A DNA stretch of 64,000 bases, from positions 682,001 through 746,000 of the forward strand of contig NZ_NRGW01000001.1 in the NCBI RefSeq assembly GCF_002332255.1. The letters run 5' to 3'. A program made the translations under genes and the position numbers. Positions within the stretch are counted from its first letter, which is position 1; each line of letters opens with the position of its first letter. This stretch comes from Halomonas sp. JB37 (GTDB lineage Bacteria; Pseudomonadota; Gammaproteobacteria; Pseudomonadales; Halomonadaceae). Below, piece by piece: positions 555 through 12,533 of the stretch. Under the pieces are notes generated by a model, which was given only the letters and a program-made list of their open reading frames with translations, was not told where the DNA came from and searched no databases.

Positions 555-1808
555 ATGGATCTTCCCCATGTAAGTGCCGCGTTGGGCGTACTACACCCTA
601 TTTGTATTGCTCGCGGACGAAATGCTGAGGTTTGGGATGAATCCGGCCTGCGCTATATCGATTTTATCGGTGGCATTGGCGTGCTTAATCTTGGTCATAG
701 CCATCCGGCCGTTGTTGATGCCGTTAAACATCAAGTAGAAACGTTGATGCACTCTGCGTTTAATGCCGTGCCTCATCGTGGCTATTTAGCAGTAGCGGAA
801 GCATTAAATCAGTTTGTCCCGGTTTCTTACCCGCTTTCCTGCATGCTGACCAATAGCGGTGCAGAAGCCACTGAAAACGCGCTAAAAGTTGCCCGAGGCG
901 TTACCGGCCGACAGGCGGTTATCGCCTTTGATGACGCCTTTCATGGTCGTACGCTGGCTGCTTTGAACCTGAATGGCAAGGTTAAACCTTATAAATCTGG
1001 ACTTGGCGCCTTACCCGGCCCGGTCTATCACCTGCCGTTTCCAAGTCGCGATAGTGGTGTGACTGCCGAGCAGTCGCTGGCCGCGCTGGAGCGCATATTC
1101 GAGGTTGAAATACCTGCCGATGAAGTGGCCTGCATCATTGTTGAGCCCATTCAAGGCGAGGGCGGTTTCCGTTTGCTCTGCCCGCAGTTTGCTCAAGCCA
1201 TGCGCGATATTTGTAATCAGCACAACATCTTATTGATTTTCGATGAAATTCAGTCTGGTTTTGGGCGTAGCGGTAAACGCTTTGGTTTCACGCATGTGGG
1301 CGTTGAGCCTGATCTGATCTTAATAGGTAAAAGCATCGCCTCTGGGCTGCCGCTGGCCGCTGTCGTAGGACGGGCCGAATTGATGGATGCGTTACCCAAA
1401 GGCGCTTTGGGAGGAACATACTCCGGTAACGCTGTGGCATGCGCAGCAGCATTGGCCGTGATGGACGTTATGCAAGAAGCCACTTTGGCAGAGTGGGGTG
1501 CACGTCAAGAAACGCTAATGGTGGAGGCCTACCAAGCATGGCAATCAAGCGGGCGCTTTCCTATGCTGGGGGTCATGACCGGCGTTGGCTCAATGCGTGG
1601 CATCGTCTTTAACGATACACCAAATGCCAGCGGAGCTGAGCATTTGGCAGCGCTACTAACAGCAGGACGCAGGGCCGGTATTCTGCTGATGCCGAGCGGG
1701 CGAAAACGCAATATTCTGCGCTTATTGCCGCCCCTCACCACTGAGCCGGAAATCTTAAAAGAAGGCTTAAATCTTATTGAGCAAGCGCTGGAAACGCTAA
1801 GCGCATGA
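555..1808 (+). CDS. Class III aminotransferase, probable L-2-aminoadipate aminotransferase
   Basis: 417-residue PLP enzyme of the GabT/PuuE class III fold. The PLP-binding Asp is D230 in LIFDEIQSGFGR and the Schiff-base Lys is K259 in LILIGKSIASGLP; the GGTYSGNAVACAAAL stretch is also typical. By sequence alone it would be called 4-aminobutyrate aminotransferase. Its stop overlaps the start of a YdiJ-like dehydrogenase (ATGA), and HglS follows. In Pseudomonas putida lysine catabolism a class III enzyme of this type (PP_4108) converts L-2-aminoadipate to 2-oxoadipate, the HglS substrate. From that context I infer the same reaction, with 2-oxoglutarate as likely amino acceptor. The start is ATG 555 with a GAGAG-type site upstream. 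GABA or another omega-amino acid remains possible. Confidence 0.8.
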   Translation: MDLPHVSAALGVLHPICIARGRNAEVWDESGLRYIDFIGGIGVLNLGHSHPAVVDAVKHQVETLMHSAFNAVPHRGYLAVAEALNQFVPVSYPLSCMLTNSGAEATENALKVARGVTGRQAVIAFDDAFHGRTLAALNLNGKVKPYKSGLGALPGPVYHLPFPSRDSGVTAEQSLAALERIFEVEIPADEVACIIVEPIQGEGGFRLLCPQFAQAMRDICNQHNILLIFDEIQSGFGRSGKRFGFTHVGVEPDLILIGKSIASGLPLAAVVGRAELMDALPKGALGGTYSGNAVACAAALAVMDVMQEATLAEWGARQETLMVEAYQAWQSSGRFPMLGVMTGVGSMRGIVFNDTPNASGAEHLAALLTAGRRAGILLMPSGRKRNILRLLPPLTTEPEILKEGLNLIEQALETLSA

Positions 1809-4800
1809 TTGCAGCAGAAGCCGGTGAACGTATTAATGCGTTATACGCACGCTTTTTACAAGCGCTCAGAATACGCGGCTTCGACGGCGAAATTGCCCCT
1901 GACTATGCCAGCCGCACGGTGCTGTCCACCGATAATTCGATTTACCAGCGTCTGCCTCAGGCGGTGGTGTTTCCCCGTCATTCACAAGATCTTGAGCGCT
2001 TGACCAAGTTAGCCGCTGAAATGCTTTACCGCGAGGTGGTGTTAACGCCCCGCGGCGGCGGCACCGGTACCAACGGCCAATCGCTGACCGATGGTATCGT
2101 GGTGGATGTCTCCCGACATATGAATCAAATCCTGGAGATTGACGTAGAGCGCCGACAGGTACGGGTGCAAGCCGGCGTGGTCAAAGACCAGTTGAATGTG
2201 GCACTCAAGCCTCACGGGCTTTTTTTTGCGCCAGAGCTTTCGACCTCAAACCGGGCAACGATCGGCGGCATGATCTCAACCGATGCCAGCGGGCAGGGTA
2301 GCTGCACCTACGGCAAGACCCGCGATCATGTGCTGGCACTGGATACCGTGCTGCTGGGCGGCCATCACTTGCATAGCCATGTGCTTAGTGCCGACGATGA
2401 ACATCAAGCCTGCCAGCAGGCAGGAATTCTGGGGGAGGTGCACCGGACGTCCGCGTTGATTATCGATCAGCAGCGGTCCTTGATTGAGGCGACGTTTCCA
2501 CCGCTGAATCGCTGTCTGACCGGTTATGACCTTGCGCACCTACGCGATGATCAGGGTCAGCTTAACTTGAACAGCGTGCTGTGCGGCTCTGAAGGCTCGC
2601 TGGGCTTTGTTAACGAAGCCGTGCTCAACGTGCTGCCTATCCCCAGCCACGTGACGTTGATCAATATACGTTACGCCGGCTTTATGGATGCCCTGTGTGA
2701 TGCTAAGGCGCTCATGGCTTCGACGACGCCTGGACGCATGGCAATTCAGCCTATCTCGATTGAGACAATCGACGATACGGTGCTCCAACTGGCTATGGCG
2801 GATTTTGTTTGGGACAGCGTGGCTGAATTTTTCCCTGATCCCGGCGACATGCCGGTTCGGGGTATTAATCTGGTTGAGTTCAGCGATGATGATCCGCAAG
2901 TTTTGGCCGAGCGGGTCGCCGCTTTTATACGCTATTTAGAGCAGGACGAGACAGTCGTGCGGCTGGGCTATAGCTTGGCCGAAGGCCGTGAGCAGATCAG
3001 TGCCGTCTATGGAATGCGAAAACGTGCGGTGGGCCTGCTGGGTAATGTGCAAGGTGAAAGACGACCACTACCTTTTGTGGAAGATACTGCCGTACCGCCT
3101 GAGTACTTAGCGGACTATATTGGTGAATTTCGCGCGGCGCTGGATGCCCGTGGACTTGCTTATGGAATGTTCGGCCACGTCGATGCTGGTGTACTCCATG
3201 TGCGCCCAGCGCTGGATATGAAAGACCCCGCCCAGGAAGCGTTGATTCGAGAGATTTCCGATGAGGTCGCCGTGCTAACGCAAAAGTACGGCGGGTTGCT
3301 GTGGGGCGAACACGGCAAGGGTGTGCGCTCTGAGTATGCGCCAGCCTTCTTCGGTGCGCTGTATCCGAGCTTGCAGCACCTCAAAGCCGCCTTTGATCCA
3401 CACAACCAGTTAAACCCCGGTAAGATTGCTTCTCCACGTGCTTTTTCCTCCGTGCTGACAGTTAGCCCCAAGCCTGCCCTCATTGCTACAACTCGCGACC
3501 CCAATTTGCTCACGATTGACGGCGTCATTACGCGAGGCCAGCTGGATCGTACGATTGACGAGCGCGCTTGGCAGGCTTACGACGCTGCGGTGTATTGCAA
3601 TGGTAATGGCGCTTGCTACAACTATGATCTTGATGACCCCATGTGCCCTTCGTGGAAAGCCACGCGCGACCGTGTTCACTCGCCTAAAGGACGCGCGAGC
3701 CTAATGCGAGAATGGCTACGTTTACAGTCGCAGGCTGGCGTTGACGTGGTTGAAGAATCTCGCCAGATTAGTGATCAGCGATTGGATGGCGCGCTAAAGC
3801 GCTTCCCTCAGCGGGTTATCAATACGCTTAGCCGTCAGCGGCACCACGACTACTCCCACGAGGTGTACGATGCCATGGCAGGCTGTCTGGCGTGCAAATC
3901 CTGCGCCGGCCAGTGCCCAGTCAAGGTCAACGTGCCGCAGTTTCGGTCGCAGTTTCTGGAGGTGTATCACGGTCGTTATCTACGTCCGCTCCGCGATTAC
4001 TTAATTGGCAATACCGAGCAAATGCTGCCGATGCTTGCCCGGGCAGCCCCGTTATATAACGCGTTGATGCGCCAGCGCTGGCTTGAGCGACTGATGCGCC
4101 GAACGCTGGGAGTGAGCGACTCTCCGCAACTTTCTCGCGGCAGTGTTAAAAAGCAGTTACGCGCCTGGGGAGTGGCGGCTGCTACGCCCACCTCGCTTAG
4201 CCTACTAACCGAAGCGCAGCGCGCAAATAGTGTGATCCTAGTGCAGGATGCGTTCACCACACACTTTGAAGTCAAGCTGGTGATGGACGTGGTGGAGTTG
4301 CTAACACGACTCGAATTGCGAGTATTTGTAGTGCCCTATGCTGCTAATGGAAAACCGCAACACGTACAGGGCTTTCTAGGTGCCTTCAAACGTACGGCAG
4401 AAAAGCAGGCTAAGCGGCTGCGGATGCTGGCTGAGTTTGGGGTGCCGATAGTAGGAATCGACCCAGCCATGACGCTGACCTACCGGCAAGAGTATGTAAA
4501 AGCGCTAGGCCCGCAGGCTGCCCCGGACGTCGGCCTGCTTCAGGAGTGGCTAGTCGCACGGCTTGATAGCCTAGCTTTGCCCTTGCGCCCACTCACCCAT
4601 CCTGGTTTTAAGCTATTGTCCCACTGCACGGAAAAAACCAATGTCCCGGGCAGTCCCAAAGCATGGCAGCAGGTATTTGAGGCCTTTGGCCTGCAGCTTG
4701 CACTAATCAATACCGGCTGTTGCGGCATGTCGGGCACCTACGGACATGAAACCCGCAACGTGGCCACGTCGAAAACGATTTACGCCCAATCCTGGCAGCC

Positions 4801-4951
4801 TCAAGTGGAGGCTAACGATAGCGTGAATACATTGCTGGCCACCGGGTACTCCTGTCGCAGCCAGGTAAAACGGTTTTCAGATCATATATTGCAGCATCCC
4901 CTTCAAGCGCTGTTAGCGCAACTGAAGGCGAGCACTCCCTTTTCACCGTAA
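1805..4951 (+). CDS. ydiJ: YdiJ-type FAD/4Fe-4S oxidoreductase, probable D-2-hydroxyglutarate dehydrogenase
   Basis: 1048 residues, close to E. coli YdiJ (about 1018). Order of domains: FAD_binding_4 (about 50-190, TPRGGGTGTNGQSL), FAD-oxidase C-terminal domain (about 280-540, with the GEHGKGVRSEY and NPGKI motifs), two cysteine clusters for Fe-S (about 598-615 and CLACKSCAGQCP near 693-704), and a CCG-like heterodisulfide-reductase domain (SHCTEKT near 940, TGCCGMSGTYGHE near 970). YdiJ and its P. putida homologue PP_4493 are linked to D-2-hydroxyglutarate oxidation to 2-oxoglutarate, passing electrons to the respiratory chain. Position between the aminotransferase (4-bp overlap) and HglS fits that role: it removes the HglS product. 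Substrate is inferred from context. Confidence 0.85.
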   Translation: MIAAEAGERINALYARFLQALRIRGFDGEIAPDYASRTVLSTDNSIYQRLPQAVVFPRHSQDLERLTKLAAEMLYREVVLTPRGGGTGTNGQSLTDGIVVDVSRHMNQILEIDVERRQVRVQAGVVKDQLNVALKPHGLFFAPELSTSNRATIGGMISTDASGQGSCTYGKTRDHVLALDTVLLGGHHLHSHVLSADDEHQACQQAGILGEVHRTSALIIDQQRSLIEATFPPLNRCLTGYDLAHLRDDQGQLNLNSVLCGSEGSLGFVNEAVLNVLPIPSHVTLINIRYAGFMDALCDAKALMASTTPGRMAIQPISIETIDDTVLQLAMADFVWDSVAEFFPDPGDMPVRGINLVEFSDDDPQVLAERVAAFIRYLEQDETVVRLGYSLAEGREQISAVYGMRKRAVGLLGNVQGERRPLPFVEDTAVPPEYLADYIGEFRAALDARGLAYGMFGHVDAGVLHVRPALDMKDPAQEALIREISDEVAVLTQKYGGLLWGEHGKGVRSEYAPAFFGALYPSLQHLKAAFDPHNQLNPGKIASPRAFSSVLTVSPKPALIATTRDPNLLTIDGVITRGQLDRTIDERAWQAYDAAVYCNGNGACYNYDLDDPMCPSWKATRDRVHSPKGRASLMREWLRLQSQAGVDVVEESRQISDQRLDGALKRFPQRVINTLSRQRHHDYSHEVYDAMAGCLACKSCAGQCPVKVNVPQFRSQFLEVYHGRYLRPLRDYLIGNTEQMLPMLARAAPLYNALMRQRWLERLMRRTLGVSDSPQLSRGSVKKQLRAWGVAAATPTSLSLLTEAQRANSVILVQDAFTTHFEVKLVMDVVELLTRLELRVFVVPYAANGKPQHVQGFLGAFKRTAEKQAKRLRMLAEFGVPIVGIDPAMTLTYRQEYVKALGPQAAPDVGLLQEWLVARLDSLALPLRPLTHPGFKLLSHCTEKTNVPGSPKAWQQVFEAFGLQLALINTGCCGMSGTYGHETRNVATSKTIYAQSWQPQVEANDSVNTLLATGYSCRSQVKRFSDHILQHPLQALLAQLKASTPFSP

Positions 4952-4974
4952 CAATACACATAGAGAGCCGTGAA

Positions 4975-6336
4975 ATGACTCAGACCCCTTTTTTAGCCAC
5001 CAATGACGTGCGCGACCGTTTCTCCACTGCCATGTCAGCGATGTACCAAAAGGAAGTGCCCCAGTACGGCACGCTGTTGGAACTGGTGGAGCAGGTTAAC
5101 CAAGAGACGCTGAATCAGCAGCCTGAGCTGCGCCGCCGCTTGGAAGCCCAGGGAGAGCTGGCGCGACTGAGCGTAGAGCGCCACGGGGCAATTCGCGTAG
5201 GTTCCGCCGATGAATTATCCATGTTGCGCCGCCTGTTTGCGGTGATGGGGATGTACCCAGTCGGCTATTATGATTTGTCCGCAGCGGGCGTGCCGGTACA
5301 CTCGACGGCTTTTCGCCCTATCGAAGATGAGGCGCTGGCGTGCAATCCTTTTCGCGTGTTTACCTCGCTGCTGCGCCTAGAGCTTATTGAAAGCGAGACG
5401 CTGCGCCAGCGTGCTGAAGAGATTCTGACTAAGCGGGATATTTTCACACCTAAAGCGCGCGATTTGATCAAGCGCTTTGAGACGCAAGGCGGATTAACCA
5501 GCGACGAGGCCGATCAGTTTGTTAATGAAGCCCTAGAAACGTTCCGCTGGCACCAGGATGCCACGGTAGATCTAGACACCTACCAGGCGCTGCATGACGA
5601 GCACCGTCTCATTGCCGATGTAGTGTGTTTTCGTGGCCCGCACATCAACCATTTAACGCCGCGTACCCTGGATATTGACGAAGCTCAGCGCCGTATGCCG
5701 AGCGTCGGCATGAATCCTAAAGCCGTGATCGAAGGCCCGCCGCGTCGTGAAAGCCCCATCTTGCTGCGGCAAACGAGTTTTAAAGCGTTAGAAGAATCTA
5801 TTCGCTTTGCTGGGGATGCTCAGGGTACGCATACCGCGCGATTTGGCGAGATCGAGCAGCGAGGCATGGCGCTTACGCCTAAAGGTCGTGCGCTTTACGA
5901 TCAGCTGTTAAATGAAGGCCGTAAGCAGACGGCAGGGCTGGATAACGATGCCCACCAAGCGGTGATGGATAAAGTATTTACAGCGCTGCCTGACAGTGAT
6001 GAAGCGATGCGCCGCGAAGGACTCGCCTACTTCCACTACCACCTCACCGCTGCCGGAAAAGCCGCGACAGGCAATACCAATAGCGATATGGATGCCCTGA
6101 TAGCACAAGGATTGGTAGAGGCCCAGCCCATTACCTATGAAGACTTTTTACCGGTCAGCGCGGCGGGTATTTTTCAATCCAATTTGGGCGGCAACGCCAG
6201 CGATGCCTATGCTGGCAACGCCAATAGAGAGGCATTTGAAGAAGCATTAGGGGCGCCGGTGACGGATGAGCTGGCGCTTTATGCCGAGCGGGAGCAGGCC
6301 TCTCTGCAGCGCATATTGGCAGCGCTAGCGGGCTAA
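4975..6336 (+). CDS. hglS: 2-oxoadipate dioxygenase/decarboxylase (HglS, DUF1338)
   Basis: 453-residue DUF1338/YdcJ protein. HglS is an Fe(II) enzyme of vicinal-oxygen-chelate-like fold that converts 2-oxoadipate plus O2 into D-2-hydroxyglutarate and CO2 in D-lysine catabolism. The metal ligands known in the P. putida enzyme (H70, H226, E294) are all present here at the same positions: SVERHGAIRVGS (H70, with R74), FRGPHINHLTP (H226) and ARFGEIEQRG (E294). It starts 23 bases after the dehydrogenase stop, behind an AGAGAG-type site, so it is the third gene of one operon. A hairpin at 6365-6393 ends the unit. Confidence in family is high. Reaction is by family knowledge plus operon logic. Confidence 0.9.
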   Translation: MTQTPFLATNDVRDRFSTAMSAMYQKEVPQYGTLLELVEQVNQETLNQQPELRRRLEAQGELARLSVERHGAIRVGSADELSMLRRLFAVMGMYPVGYYDLSAAGVPVHSTAFRPIEDEALACNPFRVFTSLLRLELIESETLRQRAEEILTKRDIFTPKARDLIKRFETQGGLTSDEADQFVNEALETFRWHQDATVDLDTYQALHDEHRLIADVVCFRGPHINHLTPRTLDIDEAQRRMPSVGMNPKAVIEGPPRRESPILLRQTSFKALEESIRFAGDAQGTHTARFGEIEQRGMALTPKGRALYDQLLNEGRKQTAGLDNDAHQAVMDKVFTALPDSDEAMRREGLAYFHYHLTAAGKAATGNTNSDMDALIAQGLVEAQPITYEDFLPVSAAGIFQSNLGGNASDAYAGNANREAFEEALGAPVTDELALYAEREQASLQRILAALAG

Positions 6337-6397: not shown

Positions 6398-7312
6398 CTA
6401 TAAACGGCTCTCAATGGCTGTGGTCACAGCGGCACTTGCCGTTAGGTGTTCGACAAACCGGCGAACTTTAGCCAGCTCGCCTAAGTGCTCGGGGTAGACC
6501 AAGTAATACGCGCTTTCGCTATGCAAACGATGCGGCCAGGCCAGTATAAGCCGGTTGGCGGCCAGCTCTTCATCTACCACAAAGTGTGGTACCAACGCGA
6601 CGCCACCCCCGGCCATGGCGGTACGCACCAGCATCGGGAAAGTTTCAAAGCGGGTGCCATGATAGCTGCGGTCAGTGGCAATCTCCTGGCCCGCAAACCA
6701 GTGGTGCCAGGCATCAGGGCGAGTGGAAAGGTGCAATAGCGGCAGTTGAGCTAAGTCGTTGGCAGCCTCAACGGGATGCTGCGCCAGCAGAGTAGGAGCG
6801 GCAACGGCGACCATCTCTTCATCTACCAGTTTATGGCAGGCAAGATTAGGCCAGCTGCCGTGACCGTAAAACAGCGCGATATCGATATCTTGCTGCTCTA
6901 GATCAAAGTCCTCCACGCGGTCATGAAACTCCAAACTAATACCCGGGTTCGCGGCTAAAAAGGCCGGTAGCTTGTCGGCTAGCCAGCGGCTGCCAAAGCT
7001 TGGCAGCGTGGCGACTTTGAGTACCTCACTATTGCCACTGTAGGTCATGATGGTATGGGTCGACATCTCAAGCTGAGCAAGCACTTTGCGTACGTCGCTC
7101 AGAAAGATAGCGCCTTCTGGAGTGAGCAAAAGGCTGCGCCTGACGCGACGGAATAGCTTATGTTGCAGAATCGACTCAAGATGCGCGACCTGCTTGCTTA
7201 CCGCGCTTTGCGTAAGGCTCAGCTCATCGGCTGCCCGGGTAAAACTCATATGACGCGCCGCAGCCTCAAAGCACTGCATAGCGGCGGTTGAAGGAAGATT
7301 ACGTGATGCCAA
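6398..7312 (-). CDS. LysR-family transcriptional regulator (GcvA-like)
   Basis: LysR protein with an N-terminal winged helix (LPSTAAMQCFEAAARHMSFT then RAADELSLTQSAVSKQVAHLE) and a two-lobed effector domain. I prefer a TTG start at 7312: it has AGGAG eight bases upstream and gives the usual six-residue lead before the first helix (304 aa). A start at ATG 7390 (330 aa) would overlap the permease stop by ATGA, but would translate through the hairpin at 7340-7365 and add 26 residues not typical of the family. It is transcribed in line with the TAXI-TRAP genes and converges on the aminoadipate operon, so either may be its target. No autoregulatory divergent gene is present, which is atypical for LysR genes. 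Confidence 0.85.
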   Translation of the reverse strand: MASRNLPSTAAMQCFEAAARHMSFTRAADELSLTQSAVSKQVAHLESILQHKLFRRVRRSLLLTPEGAIFLSDVRKVLAQLEMSTHTIMTYSGNSEVLKVATLPSFGSRWLADKLPAFLAANPGISLEFHDRVEDFDLEQQDIDIALFYGHGSWPNLACHKLVDEEMVAVAAPTLLAQHPVEAANDLAQLPLLHLSTRPDAWHHWFAGQEIATDRSYHGTRFETFPMLVRTAMAGGGVALVPHFVVDEELAANRLILAWPHRLHSESAYYLVYPEHLGELAKVRRFVEHLTASAAVTTAIESRL

Positions 7313-7339
7313 GCGAGGAGCTCCTGATAACCTATGAAC

Positions 7340-7365
7340 CGCCCCAGTGCCTGAGCACCGGGGCG
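7340..7365 (-). terminator. Hairpin between TRAP permease and LysR gene
   Basis: CGCCCCAGTGC / GCACCGGGGCG around a CTGA loop, ten pairs with one A-C mismatch. No U-run follows. It argues for a true intergenic space here and so for the later LysR start; it may reduce read-through into the regulator. Confidence 0.5.
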
Positions 7366-7386: not shown

Positions 7387-9344
7387 TCATGAAGCGAGCG
7401 GCTTCGCGTCCTGAAAAGCATCCGGGCGGCGCGACTGCCACCAGCCAACTGCCGCCATGGCTATCAATCCCAGGCCGCTGGTCAATAGCTCAGGAACAAC
7501 CATCGCAAGTCCTGCGGCCAAGATTACCAAGCGCTCCCAGAAGTGAGAGTCACGCACAAAGTAGCCGAGCAATGCGCTGCTCACGCCCATAATCCCCAGC
7601 AGCGAGAATCCCAGCGCGGTGATTAACCCCAGAGGAGTGGGGTCGACCATTACCAGCATCGGATTGTAAATAAACGCATAAGGAATAATGAAGGCACCAA
7701 TGGCCAGCTTAACCGCGGTAAAGCCGGTTTTCATCGGGTTCGCCTGGGCGATACCGGCACCGGCAAAGGCGGCTAGGCAAACGGGCGGCGTAATATCGGC
7801 AATGATGCCGAAATAGAATACAAACAGATGAACGGCCATCGGCGGCAGGCCGAATTCATTGATTAGCGCTGGTGCGGCAATCGTCGCTGTTACCACATAG
7901 TTGGCGGTTGTTGGCAATCCCATGCCCAGCACAATGCAGGCAATCATTGTGAACAGTAGTGCCAGTATTAACACGCCATCGGCCAGGCTAATGATACCGG
8001 CAGCAAATTTCGAGCCCATACCGGTCATACCGACAACACCCGCAATAATGCCCGCACAGGCCACTGCCGCAATGACTGGCAAGGCTACCCGAGCACCTTG
8101 CTCAAAAATATTGAGTATGTCTTTGAGCGATGGACGAGTCTCTTTACGCACCAAGCTTACGGCAAAAGCACAGCCGATCCCCAAGAGGGCGGCACGCTGA
8201 GCCGTGAACCCGACGCTGATCGTGGTAATGATGACCAGCAGTGGCAGCAGCATGTAGCCTTTTTCTAACAGCAGTTTACGTTTGCTAGGCAACTGGTCTT
8301 TAGGAAGGCCCAGAATACGATGACGCTTGGCTTCAAAATGGACGCCAATAAAAATACTGGCGAAATAGAGAATCGCAGGGATAAGTGCGGCGAACATGAT
8401 CTCGCGATACGAGACGCCCACGTACTCCACCATGATAAACGCAGCTGCCCCCATCAGTGGCGGCATAATTTGTCCGCCCGTAGATGCGGAGGCCTCAATG
8501 GCACCAGCGACTTCGGGCTTGAAGCGTGCATTCTTCATCATAGGAATGGTGAACGAGCCAGAGGCCACTGTATTGCCAATAGAACTGCCTGAAATCATAC
8601 CCTGTAAAGAGCTTGCCATAACCGCCGCCTTGCCCGCACCGCCAGTAAAGCGTCCAGTAACGGCAAAGGCTAAATCATTAAAGAAGCGGCCAACGCCGGT
8701 GTGCATAAGCACAACGCCGAAGAACAAAAATAGGAAGATAAAGCGCGCCGATATTTGCAGAGGTGTACCAAACACGCCGCTTTCTCTAAACCATAAATAC
8801 GGTGAGACTTGCTCAAGCGAAAAGCCTGGATGAGACAGTAAGGGGCTGGGTATTAGATTACCAAACAGCGCATAAGCAATGGCTAAGGCCGCCATAATTA
8901 CGATGGGCATACCCACCGTACGGCGCGTTGCTTCTAGAACAAACAGTACCCCGAGTACGGCGATAACGAGGTCAAACGTGGAGTAGCCGGTAATGCGGGC
9001 ACGTAGCACTTCTTCATAAAAGATAATTTTATAATAGGCAGCGAACGTTGCCGTGAAGGCCAGCACGATGTCGTACCAAGGAACGCCCTGGCGGGGGCCT
9101 GCGCCGCGAGTAGCCGGGAAGATAATAAATATCATCCCTAGCGCCATGCCTAAGTGAACGGCGCCCTGCTGTTGTGAGGGTAGCGTACCGAAGTAAGCGG
9201 TGTAGAGATGGAAGCAGGTAAGTGACACGCCCATTAACGTGATGAGCCATGCCCATTTGCCTAATTGTAATGGCGAGCGAACCTGAGACTCGCGGTCATA
9301 TTTCTCTAAGAGAGCTGCTTCATCAGATGTTTTTTTTTATCCAC
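7387..9344 (-). CDS. TRAP transporter fused permease (DctQM type, TAXI partner), out-of-frame start
   Basis: Large membrane protein of the fused 4TM-12TM TRAP family that works with TAXI binding proteins. The segment GRFTGGAGKAAVMASSLQGM followed by ISGSSIGNTVASGSFTIP is a family hallmark of the DctM part. The first ATG in frame is 9234, giving 615 residues that begin inside the DctQ part. Upstream the same frame encodes further family-like sequence (DEAALLEKYDRESQVRS, then LQLGKWAWLITL) with no usable start, until a TAA formed in an A9 run. A GTG at 9344 with GAGG seven bases upstream is one base out of frame: ten instead of nine A would join it exactly. Either the base is missing from the read, or slippage or a mutation is involved. 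I list the full span. Confidence 0.75.
9330..9338 (-). repeat. A9 homopolymer at the start of the TRAP permease gene
   Basis: Nine A on the coding (minus) strand, two codons after the GTG at 9344. With nine A the GTG frame meets TAG after 12 codons. With ten A it runs into the 615-residue permease frame. This is a candidate phase-variable or slippage tract, or a sequencing length error. Confidence 0.7.
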
Positions 9345-9399: not shown

Positions 9400-10395
9400 T
9401 TAATCAGTCAGATCACTTAAGCTTTCAATCTTGGAGCGTTCGCGAGTAACAATTTGGATAACTTCTGGATAGATATGGCCGATAAAGGCAACGTTGCCGA
9501 TTGGACCACCTTCGAACTCGCCGCTGCCTTCAACGGCATCTTGGGCGGGCGCGTGAACGGTCATACCCAAATCCATCGTATTGTCGCGGATACTGACAAG
9601 GTTCTCGATGGAGGCACCGGTTTCGATGTTGGTAAAATTCTGGCCATCCAGGTAACGATTCCAGATAGTCGCCATTTCGCCACCCAGCGGGTAGTAGGTG
9701 CCGCCCTGGCTGCCGGTACCCAGAATGAATTCACTTTTGGATTCTATATTGCCAAGCTCTGCCACGGGGTTATCGACCGTCAGCCCCTGCTCCTCATAGT
9801 AGCGCTTTGCACCCGGGTGAATTGGTAGGCCTTCAGAGCCGTTCAAGGCATTTTCCAGCGTCATGAAGGCTGACTGAGCGTGCGTATTTTCTTCAGCGTG
9901 TTCATGCATCAAACGCGCCAGCTCATAGCCGAGTTCTTCATCAATCGTCTGGGTATTACCGACCAAGACAGCGTAAGCCGTAATGGTTTCTACATCTTCT
10001 TTCTGAAAATCATAGCTGCCTGCGGGAATCGTAAACCGCTTATAGGCGCTATTCGCTTCGATGTAATCAATTGCCTCGTCGCTTAGGCTCATCAAGCGGA
10101 CATCGCCACTAGACGCCTGGAGGTTTTCAATGCTGCCTGAAGGCAAGCCAAGAATGCCGATCGAAATATCAATATTGCCATCTTGTACACCGTCGAGCGC
10201 GGCGCCAAAGCCTTCCTGATATGTTTTGTATTTGTCGCTGCCAATACCGTAAGCATCAAAAAGCAGTTGGGAAACGCTTTGCGTTGTGCTAGCAGGAGGC
10301 CCAACCGCAATATTAGGCTTGCTTTCGCTACTACATCCCGCGAGGAAAATGCTGGCACTTAAGCCACAGAAGACCTTGGACAGGGAAAGCTTCAT
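9400..10395 (-). CDS. TAXI-family TRAP substrate-binding lipoprotein, circularly permuted
   Basis: 331 residues from ATG 10395 (AGGAG five bases upstream). Residues 1-21 are a lipoprotein signal with lipobox LAGC, Cys21. The mature protein has every segment of a TAXI binding protein but in rotated order. It starts at N28 with IAVGPPASTTQSVSQLL, normally the middle of the protein (after DLKGKR). It runs to the usual C-terminal stretch GLPIHPGAKRYYEEQGL (about 189-205), crosses a short linker (206-222), then has the usual N-terminal stretch FILGTGSQGGTYYPLGG (223-239). It ends with IYPEVIQIVTR and KIESLSDLTD at 331, where the family normally continues with GKR-(I/V)-(A/S)-V-G. Ser22 at +2 lacks the Asp retention signal, so outer-membrane sorting is possible. 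It feeds the permease 55 bases downstream. The ligand is unknown, probably an organic acid. Confidence 0.88.
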   Translation of the reverse strand: MKLSLSKVFCGLSASIFLAGCSSESKPNIAVGPPASTTQSVSQLLFDAYGIGSDKYKTYQEGFGAALDGVQDGNIDISIGILGLPSGSIENLQASSGDVRLMSLSDEAIDYIEANSAYKRFTIPAGSYDFQKEDVETITAYAVLVGNTQTIDEELGYELARLMHEHAEENTHAQSAFMTLENALNGSEGLPIHPGAKRYYEEQGLTVDNPVAELGNIESKSEFILGTGSQGGTYYPLGGEMATIWNRYLDGQNFTNIETGASIENLVSIRDNTMDLGMTVHAPAQDAVEGSGEFEGGPIGNVAFIGHIYPEVIQIVTRERSKIESLSDLTD

Positions 10396-10793: not shown

Positions 10794-12350
10794 TTAACGG
10801 TCAATAATCCCCTGCTCACGCGCCATGGCATACGCCGCTTTAGGGCCATCCCATAAAGAAGGCAGCAGGATGAATGAGACCGGAATGGCAGTGACCACAA
10901 TAAACTGCTGGAGCGCAGCGATCTGCCCTGACCCCATATGTAAAAGCACGCCCGCCATGATCGCCATGGCGACCCCCCAGAAGGCACGCATGACTGCACT
11001 TGGGTCATCGTGGCCTGCACCCACGACGGCAATGGCGTAGCTCATTGAGTCGCCGGTGGTGGCCACAAAGATAGTTGTAAGCAGCAAAATGGCCATGGTC
11101 ATAAAGGACCCGCCCGGTAGCGACTGGGCGACGGCTAAGGTGGCCACATCAAACTGGAAGTTGCTTAGCGGCTCGGTTAAATCAAACACGCCGGTCATCT
11201 GGTAGTAGATACCTGACCCACCCAGCAGGGTGAACCACACTGTGGTGGCGATAGGCGCCAGTATCGCCACCGCAATAATCATCTCGCGGATGCTGCGACC
11301 GCGGGAAATACGCGCCACAAAAATAGCTACTAGCGGGCCAAAGCCGATAAACCAGGCAAAGAAAAATATCGTCCACCACTGCATCCACCAAGCGGGAGCG
11401 GTTTCAGCGGTCATCGTTGCCATCGGGAAAAAATCACTTATGTAAGTGCCCATTCCTGCAAAGTAGCTGTTAAACAGAAACAGCGTGGGGCCAAATATGA
11501 AAATCACCGCACCGACCGCCAGGGCTAGAAAGACGTTGAAACGGCTGAGTATCTGCATGCCCTTATGCACACCACTGACGGCCGACAGCACATACATCGT
11601 GCCCAGGACGGCGAGAATAATCAGCTTGCTGGTGTAGTTATTGGGAATATCAAACACTTCATGTAGCCCAAAGCTTACTTGGGTCGCTAGAAAGCCAATA
11701 GGCCCCACCGTACCGGCCACAACGGCAATCACACAGCAGGCATCAATGATGCCGCCCAGCGGGCCGCGCAAAAGTCGTTCACCCAACAGAGGATAAAGCA
11801 GCGTGCGTGGCTGCAGCGGTTGGCCTTTTACATAGTGAGCATGCGCCAGCACGATAGCGGACAACGAGCCAAGTACCGCCCAGCCAATAAACCCCCAATG
11901 CGTGAAGGCCTGCGCCAAAGCACCTGCAACGGCGTCGGGCGTGCCTGGCTCAGTATCAAACGCGGGTGGCGTGACTAAAAAGTGAGAAATCGGCTCACCG
12001 GCAGCAAAAAACACTCCACCACCTGCCAAAAGCGTGCACAGAATGATCGATAGCCACTTGAATGTGCTCATTTCTGGTGCATCCAAATTGCCAATTTTGG
12101 CTTTTGCAGCCGGTGTGACTGCAATCCCCATGGCAATAAAGAACGTGAGCAGCAGCAGTAGTTGGAAGTAGCTGCCAAAGACCAACGCCGTCCAGCTGAA
12201 GCTGGTGCTGATGGCACCCGCCACTAAGTTAATGTCGTAAAAGGACAGGCCTAGGAAAGCGACAATAAATCCAATACTTAGGGTGAGCACGATAGGATCG
12301 CCAAGCGAGTGTCGCTTATGGCTTTCAGCACCGGGAGTCGGTTGGTTCAT
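10794..12350 (-). CDS. BCCT-family transporter (betaine/choline/carnitine class)
   Basis: 518 residues from ATG 12350 (MNQPTPGAESHKRH), with an AAGG site nine bases upstream; longer readings from 12524 would run through a terminator and are rejected. Twelve hydrophobic segments are visible, and the tryptophan-rich stretch WWMQWWTIFFFAWFIGFGPL followed by VAIFVARISRGRSIREM is the BCCT signature region. Family members import trimethylammonium compounds or related zwitterions by Na+ or H+ symport and often serve osmoprotection, fitting a halophile. Both tails are short, unlike the long C-terminal osmosensor of BetP, so osmotic gating by that route is not expected. It looks monocistronic. The substrate cannot be read from sequence. 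Confidence 0.85.
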   Translation of the reverse strand: MNQPTPGAESHKRHSLGDPIVLTLSIGFIVAFLGLSFYDINLVAGAISTSFSWTALVFGSYFQLLLLLTFFIAMGIAVTPAAKAKIGNLDAPEMSTFKWLSIILCTLLAGGGVFFAAGEPISHFLVTPPAFDTEPGTPDAVAGALAQAFTHWGFIGWAVLGSLSAIVLAHAHYVKGQPLQPRTLLYPLLGERLLRGPLGGIIDACCVIAVVAGTVGPIGFLATQVSFGLHEVFDIPNNYTSKLIILAVLGTMYVLSAVSGVHKGMQILSRFNVFLALAVGAVIFIFGPTLFLFNSYFAGMGTYISDFFPMATMTAETAPAWWMQWWTIFFFAWFIGFGPLVAIFVARISRGRSIREMIIAVAILAPIATTVWFTLLGGSGIYYQMTGVFDLTEPLSNFQFDVATLAVAQSLPGGSFMTMAILLLTTIFVATTGDSMSYAIAVVGAGHDDPSAVMRAFWGVAMAIMAGVLLHMGSGQIAALQQFIVVTAIPVSFILLPSLWDGPKAAYAMAREQGIIDR

Positions 12351-12407
12351 CAATAAGAACACCTTGGGTGGAACATGAAGAAACAGCGCAAATGCGGAAA
12401 GCGCAGC

Positions 12408-12437
12408 AAAAAAAAAGCGCCATTCATTGAATGGCGC
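12408..12437 (-). terminator. Rho-independent terminator of the DUF481 gene
   Basis: Ten-bp perfect stem GCGCCATTCA / TGAATGGCGC at 12417-12437 followed on the minus strand by nine T (12416-12408). It lies about 100 bases past the DUF481 stop and just ahead of the BCCT start. Confidence 0.85.
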
Positions 12438-12533
12438 GAGGACAGGAAACTGGACACAGTATATCGATAATATAGACCAACGTCTAACTCGTTTTATTTT
12501 GGTGCGTAAAAAAATAGCCTGCACGCTTTTGGC

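Follow-up and report, generated by a model that had tools for sequence, protein, structure and literature searches.

A circularly permuted TAXI receptor of a TRAP transporter in Halomonas and Bacillota

Background

Chain rotation of substrate receptors is known from ATP-binding cassette (ABC) transporters, in OpuAC/ProX and in TpMglB-2; it also occurs in a receptor of a tripartite ATP-independent periplasmic (TRAP) transporter, a case that appears to be new within the open-access literature searched. The gene of this receptor lies in a stretch of 64,000 nucleotides of Halomonas sp. JB37 (RefSeq assembly GCF_002332255.1, contig NZ_NRGW01000001.1, positions 682,001 to 746,000; this whole stretch is henceforth called the window) and encodes a derivative of the TAXI (TRAP-associated extracytoplasmic immunogenic) family. 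The window receptor is genuinely a TAXI receptor in circularly permuted form; the permutation arose once, is present in two phyla, and would shift the membrane anchor to the other lobe.

OpuAC of Bacillus subtilis, compared with ProX (both glycine-betaine receptors), is like the window receptor a natural permutation of a two-lobed receptor, and the permutation search CPSARST grouped 2b4l (OpuAC) with 1r9l (ProX of E. coli) as members of the same circular-permutation family (as listed in PMC2395249; 1r9l is named as ProX in a passage of PMC2861598). OpuAC differs in belonging to an ABC transporter and to another sequence family (11-12% identity); the match is structural only, and the partner of the window receptor is a TRAP permease. 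TpMglB-2 of Treponema pallidum is likewise circularly permuted and has the lipid anchor that is predicted for the window receptor; its authors consider that this topology may have arisen together with membrane anchoring (PMC4990184). It differs in being a sugar receptor of Type I that serves an ABC transporter, and its permuted part contains a large insertion. Within the TAXI family, BP0403 TAXI-GltS of Bordetella pertussis also departs from the standard plan, although by extra N-terminal domains and a GltS partner (as described in a part of PMC12344293). Canonical TAXI receptors (TIGR02122/PF16868; VcGluP 8s4j/9ibo, 1us4) share with the window receptor the family, the two lobes, the hinge strands, part of the pocket, and the link to a fused permease, whereas the rotated order, a new linker of mostly 17 or 19 residues, and a predicted anchor at lobe 2 set the window receptor apart.

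An earlier note on this DNA, made from the sequence alone, had known of no described circular permutation in TRAP-TAXI receptors. In agreement with it, no permuted TRAP or TAXI receptor was found in the open-access literature searched (most subscription papers lie outside it), none was among the matches listed (12 of 33) for natural permuted periplasmic binding proteins, and neither PMC11574862 nor PMC12344293 contains a word that starts with permut.

Chain order of the window receptor

The receptor gene and its parts are as follows (window coordinates):

9400-10395, minus strand: open reading frame (ORF) of the TAXI receptor, 331 residues
10336..10395, minus strand: signal peptide, residues 1-20, ending in LAG before Cys21 (by eye)
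10333-10335, minus strand: Cys21, the predicted lipid-anchored residue (read from the sequence)
9781..10314, minus strand: native C-terminal part, now first, residues 28-205 (most of lobe 2, hinge strand 135-147, and the C-terminal part of lobe 1)
9730..9780, minus strand: linker joining the native C- and N-termini, residues 206-222
9403..9729, minus strand: native N-terminal part, now last, residues 223-331 (start of lobe 1, hinge strand 302-318, and the first short piece of lobe 2)

The chain runs from a lipoprotein-type signal through the native C-terminal part and the 17-residue linker to the native N-terminal part. The LAGC box was seen by eye, and a hydrophobic stretch followed by [AG]C is similar in those permuted relatives whose N-terminus was printed. 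PF16868 and TIGR02122 each match the protein in two stretches, the best of which cover profile positions 113-289 of 289 at residues 28-204 and 144-320 of 320 at residues 29-204, respectively, i.e., the C-terminal part of the family in both cases. In the alignment to the solved TAXI receptor 8s4j, chain positions 6-116 pair with residues 223-330 and chain positions 120-298 with residues 29-205, while the normal-order relative at locus L151 matches 8u79, 1us4, and 8s4j in one stretch apiece. Because two swapped stretches were found instead of the canonical order (N-terminal part of lobe 1 first, one collinear stretch), the protein was regarded as a permuted derivative of the TAXI family and not as a standard member. 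Each part matches, without overlap, the stretch of solved TAXI receptors that the other leaves uncovered, which argues for rotation and against a tandem duplicate or an assembly join; a tandem partial duplicate would repeat a range, and since no range is repeated, duplication is excluded. Paired complementary TIGR02122 ranges (about 141-320 and 23-147) were present in 19 of 19 genomes, which had been picked for carrying permuted loci. The window receptor scores 220.7 bits with TIGR02122 (cut-off 84.35) and 213.5 with PF16868 (cut-off 27), and because a permuted protein still clears the TIGR02122 cut-off, profile annotation hides the rotation.

The proposal of the earlier note that all TAXI segments are present in rotated order is borne out by the complementary and swapped 8s4j alignment. 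The motifs that it quoted were found on the minus strand, as were the reading frame, start, and stop, its linker of about 17 residues corresponds to residues 206-222 between the old termini, and the end of the chain in SLSDLTD, where it expected the family to go on with GKR, agrees with normal-order relatives, which continue with GKR or similar. Its reading of a single frame without an assembly join stands as well, since identical order recurs in separate assemblies of many species. Of the two outcomes that it had left to a permutation-aware alignment, tandem duplicates or one rotated domain, complementary coverage and normal-order sisters favour the latter.

Origin and distribution

The careful tree was built from 67 rows, drawn from the permuted ORFs (47 of 148) and the normal ones (20 of 89), after each part had been aligned on its own and the native order restored. 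The permuted proteins formed one clade (support 100/97), with the normal-order proteins of L151 and L231 as the next sister (98/91); a further five proteins of normal order came next, the entire group being supported at 100/99. One order change was needed, no reversal was seen among the rows, and the rotation was taken as derived because the outgroup has normal order. Separate quick trees of each part also required one change each and placed the permuted rows together with the seven sisters named above (support of 98 in either tree), to which the window receptor has per-part identities of 0.51-0.57 and 0.53-0.59. Earlier trees had given the permuted clade weaker support, i.e., 85 (quick, 122 rows) and 90/75 (one close normal-order sister), which the seven sisters lifted to 100/97; the tree program flagged meeting long branches in all these receptor trees.

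The Pseudomonadota rows formed one clade (100/99) within a mostly Bacillota clade (100/99), and this nesting is most simply explained by a transfer from Bacillota into Halomonadaceae, according to which the rotation would have happened once in Bacillota before the gene moved. As to the donor branch, the tree with one sister joins the Pseudomonadota clade to Bacillus chungangensis (L104, 97/93), and the careful tree leaves this point open. In a quick permease tree of 100 rows, the permeases of permuted receptors formed one clade (98) with the permease of the normal-order L151 as sister (96); given this congruence, the same transporter lineage retained its permease while the receptor rotated. 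At L074, L078, and L080 (Siminovitchia, Bacillus), the sequence immediately upstream of the permuted operon holds a TAXI operon of normal order; origin from the latter was considered and rejected, as its proteins are far from the permuted clade in the tree.

The search termed genome_contigs confirmed 128 stretches encoding relatives, and the figures given here for it cover the best 80 of 128. Rotated order was found in all 80 loci, which belong to Halomonadaceae, one Pseudomonas, and Bacillota, at best-segment identities of 60-92%. The question of the earlier note whether homologues of the same order exist is hereby answered: the permuted receptor forms a lineage. Bacillota rows labelled in the trees include Bacillaceae and Caryophanaceae. 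Full-length permuted matches were present in 19 of 82 genomes of the genus and 19 of 201 genomes of the family (5 of 24 genera). In the order of genome G087, a strong half match occurred in 36 of 261 genomes, and the 30 with loci checked for order were all permuted; in the order of G098, permuted receptors were found in 10 of 299 genomes and normal-order sisters in 6. Samples drawn evenly and sparsely across the phyla contained the permuted receptor in 1 of 398 Bacillota genomes (the centre genome itself; one further genome, G363, had a normal-order sister) and in 2 of 398 Pseudomonadota genomes. Over all loci, which overlap between search methods, 237 TAXI ORFs were classed as permuted (148), normal (89), or single-part (0).

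Cut site, linker, and predicted fold

Most printed normal-order relatives read ...GI(K/E)SxxDL(K/E)GKRVxIGPxGSGT... or close to it, and permuted Bacillota proteins typically end in ...GIKSFDDLK and start soon after the Cys with ...GKKNIAIGPPAS or similar. As these ends flank one point, the chain was opened between DL(K/E) and GK(R/K). In VcGluP, domain 1 comprises residues 29-115 and 268-328, the hinge strands 116-131 and 255-267, and domain 2 residues 132-254 (domain description in PMC11574862; residue number equals 8s4j chain index plus 28, verified on the alignment letters). The new termini map to VcGluP residues ~144-148, i.e., 12-16 residues inside domain 2 and past hinge strand 116-131, so that the earlier note, which had put them exactly at the lobe boundary, was slightly off. 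Its suggestion of altered hinge motion does not describe the likely effect, because the model retains both hinge strands (302-318 and 135-147, corresponding to VcGluP 116-131 and 255-267). With both new ends in lobe 2, the anchor would sit on that lobe and no longer on lobe 1, by which docking or tether geometry may be changed. Among the 148 permuted ORFs, the linker spans 16-19 residues in 146 (76 ORFs with 17, 67 with 19; the other two were unmatched by the script pattern), and its core TVDNPVAEL is mostly conserved among permuted proteins.

AlphaFold predicted one two-lobed protein (predicted local distance difference test, pLDDT, 87; predicted template modelling score, pTM, 0.82), with block-mean pLDDT values of 86-98 across residues 201-230, which include the linker. 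The best structural row spanning the whole model was OpuAC, at 11-12% identity, and in VIA-align, 9ibp was the sole TAXI entry among 50 rows listed. A model of the normal-order L151 receptor from single sequence reached a pLDDT of 36.4 and was unusable as a control.

Inferred binding pocket

Thirteen VcGluP positions contacting L-glutamate directly or via water (taken from the binding-site description in PMC11574862) were mapped by hand through the 8s4j alignment onto 47 permuted and 7 sister proteins. At 12 of the 13 positions, the same or a similar residue occurs in permuted and sister proteins, from which it follows that the rotation changed the pocket little. VcGluP S40, Y45, Y46, S75, E125, and G203 are kept in both groups with rare exceptions, and Q93 is replaced by H, H123 by Y, Y200 by G, D157 by T, V44 by T, and M201 by I or L. 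The pocket differs from that of the glutamate receptor, and the ligand is likely a small carboxylate or amino acid, perhaps not glutamate.

Gene neighbourhood

The following neighbours were annotated in the window:

7387..9344, minus strand: fused TRAP permease (TIGR02123, 709.5 bits, cut-off 320.65; ORF listed from ATG 9234)
6398..7348, minus strand: LysR-type regulator beside the permease (best NCBIfam matches below cut-offs)
555-1808, plus strand: 2-aminoadipate transaminase (above curated cut-off)
1805-4951, plus strand: D-2-hydroxyglutarate dehydrogenase YdiJ (above curated cut-off)
4975-6336, plus strand: 2-oxoadipate dioxygenase/decarboxylase HglS (above curated cut-off)
10794-12524, minus strand: transporter of the BCCT family, encoded upstream of the receptor (327 bits with TIGR00842, under the cut-off of 407.55)

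A permease adjoins the receptor gene in the window and in 79 of the 80 genome_contigs loci. A permuted receptor at L082 (4352-5365), in a Virgibacillus, has no permease within the stretch examined; the same Virgibacillus also has L093, with both a second permuted receptor and a permease. The BCCT transporter cluster was also found in 8 other Pseudomonadota loci.

Four similarity clusters of lysine-pathway genes were named from annotated examples, i.e., the transaminase, YdiJ, HglS, and a piperidine-6-carboxylate dehydrogenase, whose example is truncated where the locus ends and does not reach its cut-off. At least one of them occurs in 21 of 24 Pseudomonadota loci (window and L040-L062), none has a member in the Bacillota loci L063-L119, and no constant neighbour other than the permease was seen in the Bacillota loci printed. 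The lysine/2-aminoadipate genes at 555-6336 suggest a C5-C6 dicarboxylate or aminodicarboxylate as substrate in Halomonadaceae. Because the Halomonadaceae genes sit in this catabolic cluster, 2-aminoadipate, 2-oxoadipate, 2-hydroxyglutarate, or a similar compound is a reasonable but weakly supported guess.

Nine-A run at the permease start

One further feature lies at the start of the permease gene:

9330..9338, minus strand: run of nine A's, after GTG (9344-9342) and GAT, with GAGG upstream of the GTG

The permease frame would be joined to this GTG by one extra A or a -1 shift, and the conserved permease N-terminus (KKTSDEAALLEKYDRES in the window) reaches upstream of ATG 9234 to the run. Pseudomonadota loci usually have no in-frame start upstream of this N-terminus. 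Among 27 distinct upstream sequences from 50 loci (Pseudomonadota loci among L011-L028, L040-L062, and L211-L217), 24 carry the nine-A run and lack any ATG, GTG, or TTG in frame, one carries ten A's together with a GTG in frame, and in the remaining two a start is available in frame and runs do not exceed six. In the Bacillota loci L063-L119, 59 permease ORFs were found, a few belonging to neighbouring systems; every one of them has its start in frame and lacks a run of nine. Selection against slippage-prone runs becomes apparent at a length of nine nucleotides in a large proportion of bacterial genomes, and slippage serves the expression of some genes (both as stated in passages of PMC1088944); a search of the open-access literature for TRAP transporters together with slippage gave nothing relevant. 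The run is likely a conserved slippage or frameshift site that would lower the permease relative to the receptor, and is thus a candidate for programmed transcriptional slippage or a -1 frameshift; the permease product would then include KKTSDEAALLEK.

Interpretation and alternative explanations

The window gene very probably encodes the membrane-anchored receptor of a TAXI-type TRAP transporter and was circularly permuted once in a Bacillota ancestor. As the sequences show, the chain was opened at the start of lobe 2, between DL(K/E) and GK(R/K), and its old C- and N-termini were tied by a linker mostly of 17 or 19 residues; the permuted gene lies beside its permease and occurs in Halomonadaceae too. 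The protein would keep the ordinary two-lobed fold, both hinge strands, and a pocket nearly as in its normal-order sisters, close on a small carboxylate or amino acid, and hand it to the adjoining fused permease. Binding and delivery are most likely ordinary. What most likely changed in physical terms is how the receptor is tethered relative to the permease, with lobe 2 in place of lobe 1 attached to the lipid anchor, and not the mechanism of binding or of the hinge.

Several points weigh against this account. The effect of the anchor shift is something we infer, and the fold is that of a predicted model, for which the top Foldseek rank, TAXI chain 9ibp, covers 205 columns (E 3.0e-9) and OpuAC, ranked third, has a root mean square deviation of about 10 Å over 338 columns. 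Pocket position 37 (VcGluP 156) varies within the permuted clade (E, T, G, A) and is G in 7 of 7 sisters. Lysine-pathway neighbours occur in Pseudomonadota loci only, though Bacillota share the pocket, which makes the substrate uncertain.

The most serious alternative concerns why the rotation persisted: it may have drifted neutrally, tolerated and with no effect on anchoring or docking, which we hold to be only slightly more doubtful than probable. The nearly unchanged pocket, the kept hinge strands, and the same permease lineage speak for neutrality, and the points cited against it, i.e., a single origin with no reversal among the tree rows and a mostly conserved linker core, are both compatible with it as well. 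Less probable, and put forward tentatively, is the idea that the rotation was retained because re-anchoring by lobe 2 presents the receptor to the TRAP permease from another side, in a topology converged on that of OpuAC, and that in Halomonadaceae the receptor-to-permease ratio is set by the conserved nine-A slippage site. The case forms a natural experiment: the receptor was rotated once, its normal-order sisters still exist and have almost the same pocket, and the permease belongs to the same lineage. A comparison could therefore test which lobe tolerates tethering, or has to come first when the receptor docks on a TRAP permease.

A domain-swapped dimer or split-lobe assembly in place of a monomeric flytrap is improbable: the termini and linker are new, and a monomer prediction cannot speak to pairing between chains, but the monomer model is confident, also across the linker region (pTM and block-mean pLDDT given above). 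Still less credible is an origin of the present protein as two tandem partial duplicates or as a fusion of parts of two receptor genes. A permutation probably passes through tandem duplication, and the normal TAXI operons directly upstream at L074, L078, and L080 would suit such an origin; against this, the profile and structure ranges of the two parts are complementary with nothing repeated, and those upstream genes are distant from the permuted clade. Fusion of two different receptors found no support, as the separate part trees show the same seven sisters, at similar identities. A sequencing or assembly artefact can practically be dismissed, as the same order is found in 19 of 82 genomes of the genus, in 80 of 80 loci, and in a second phylum.
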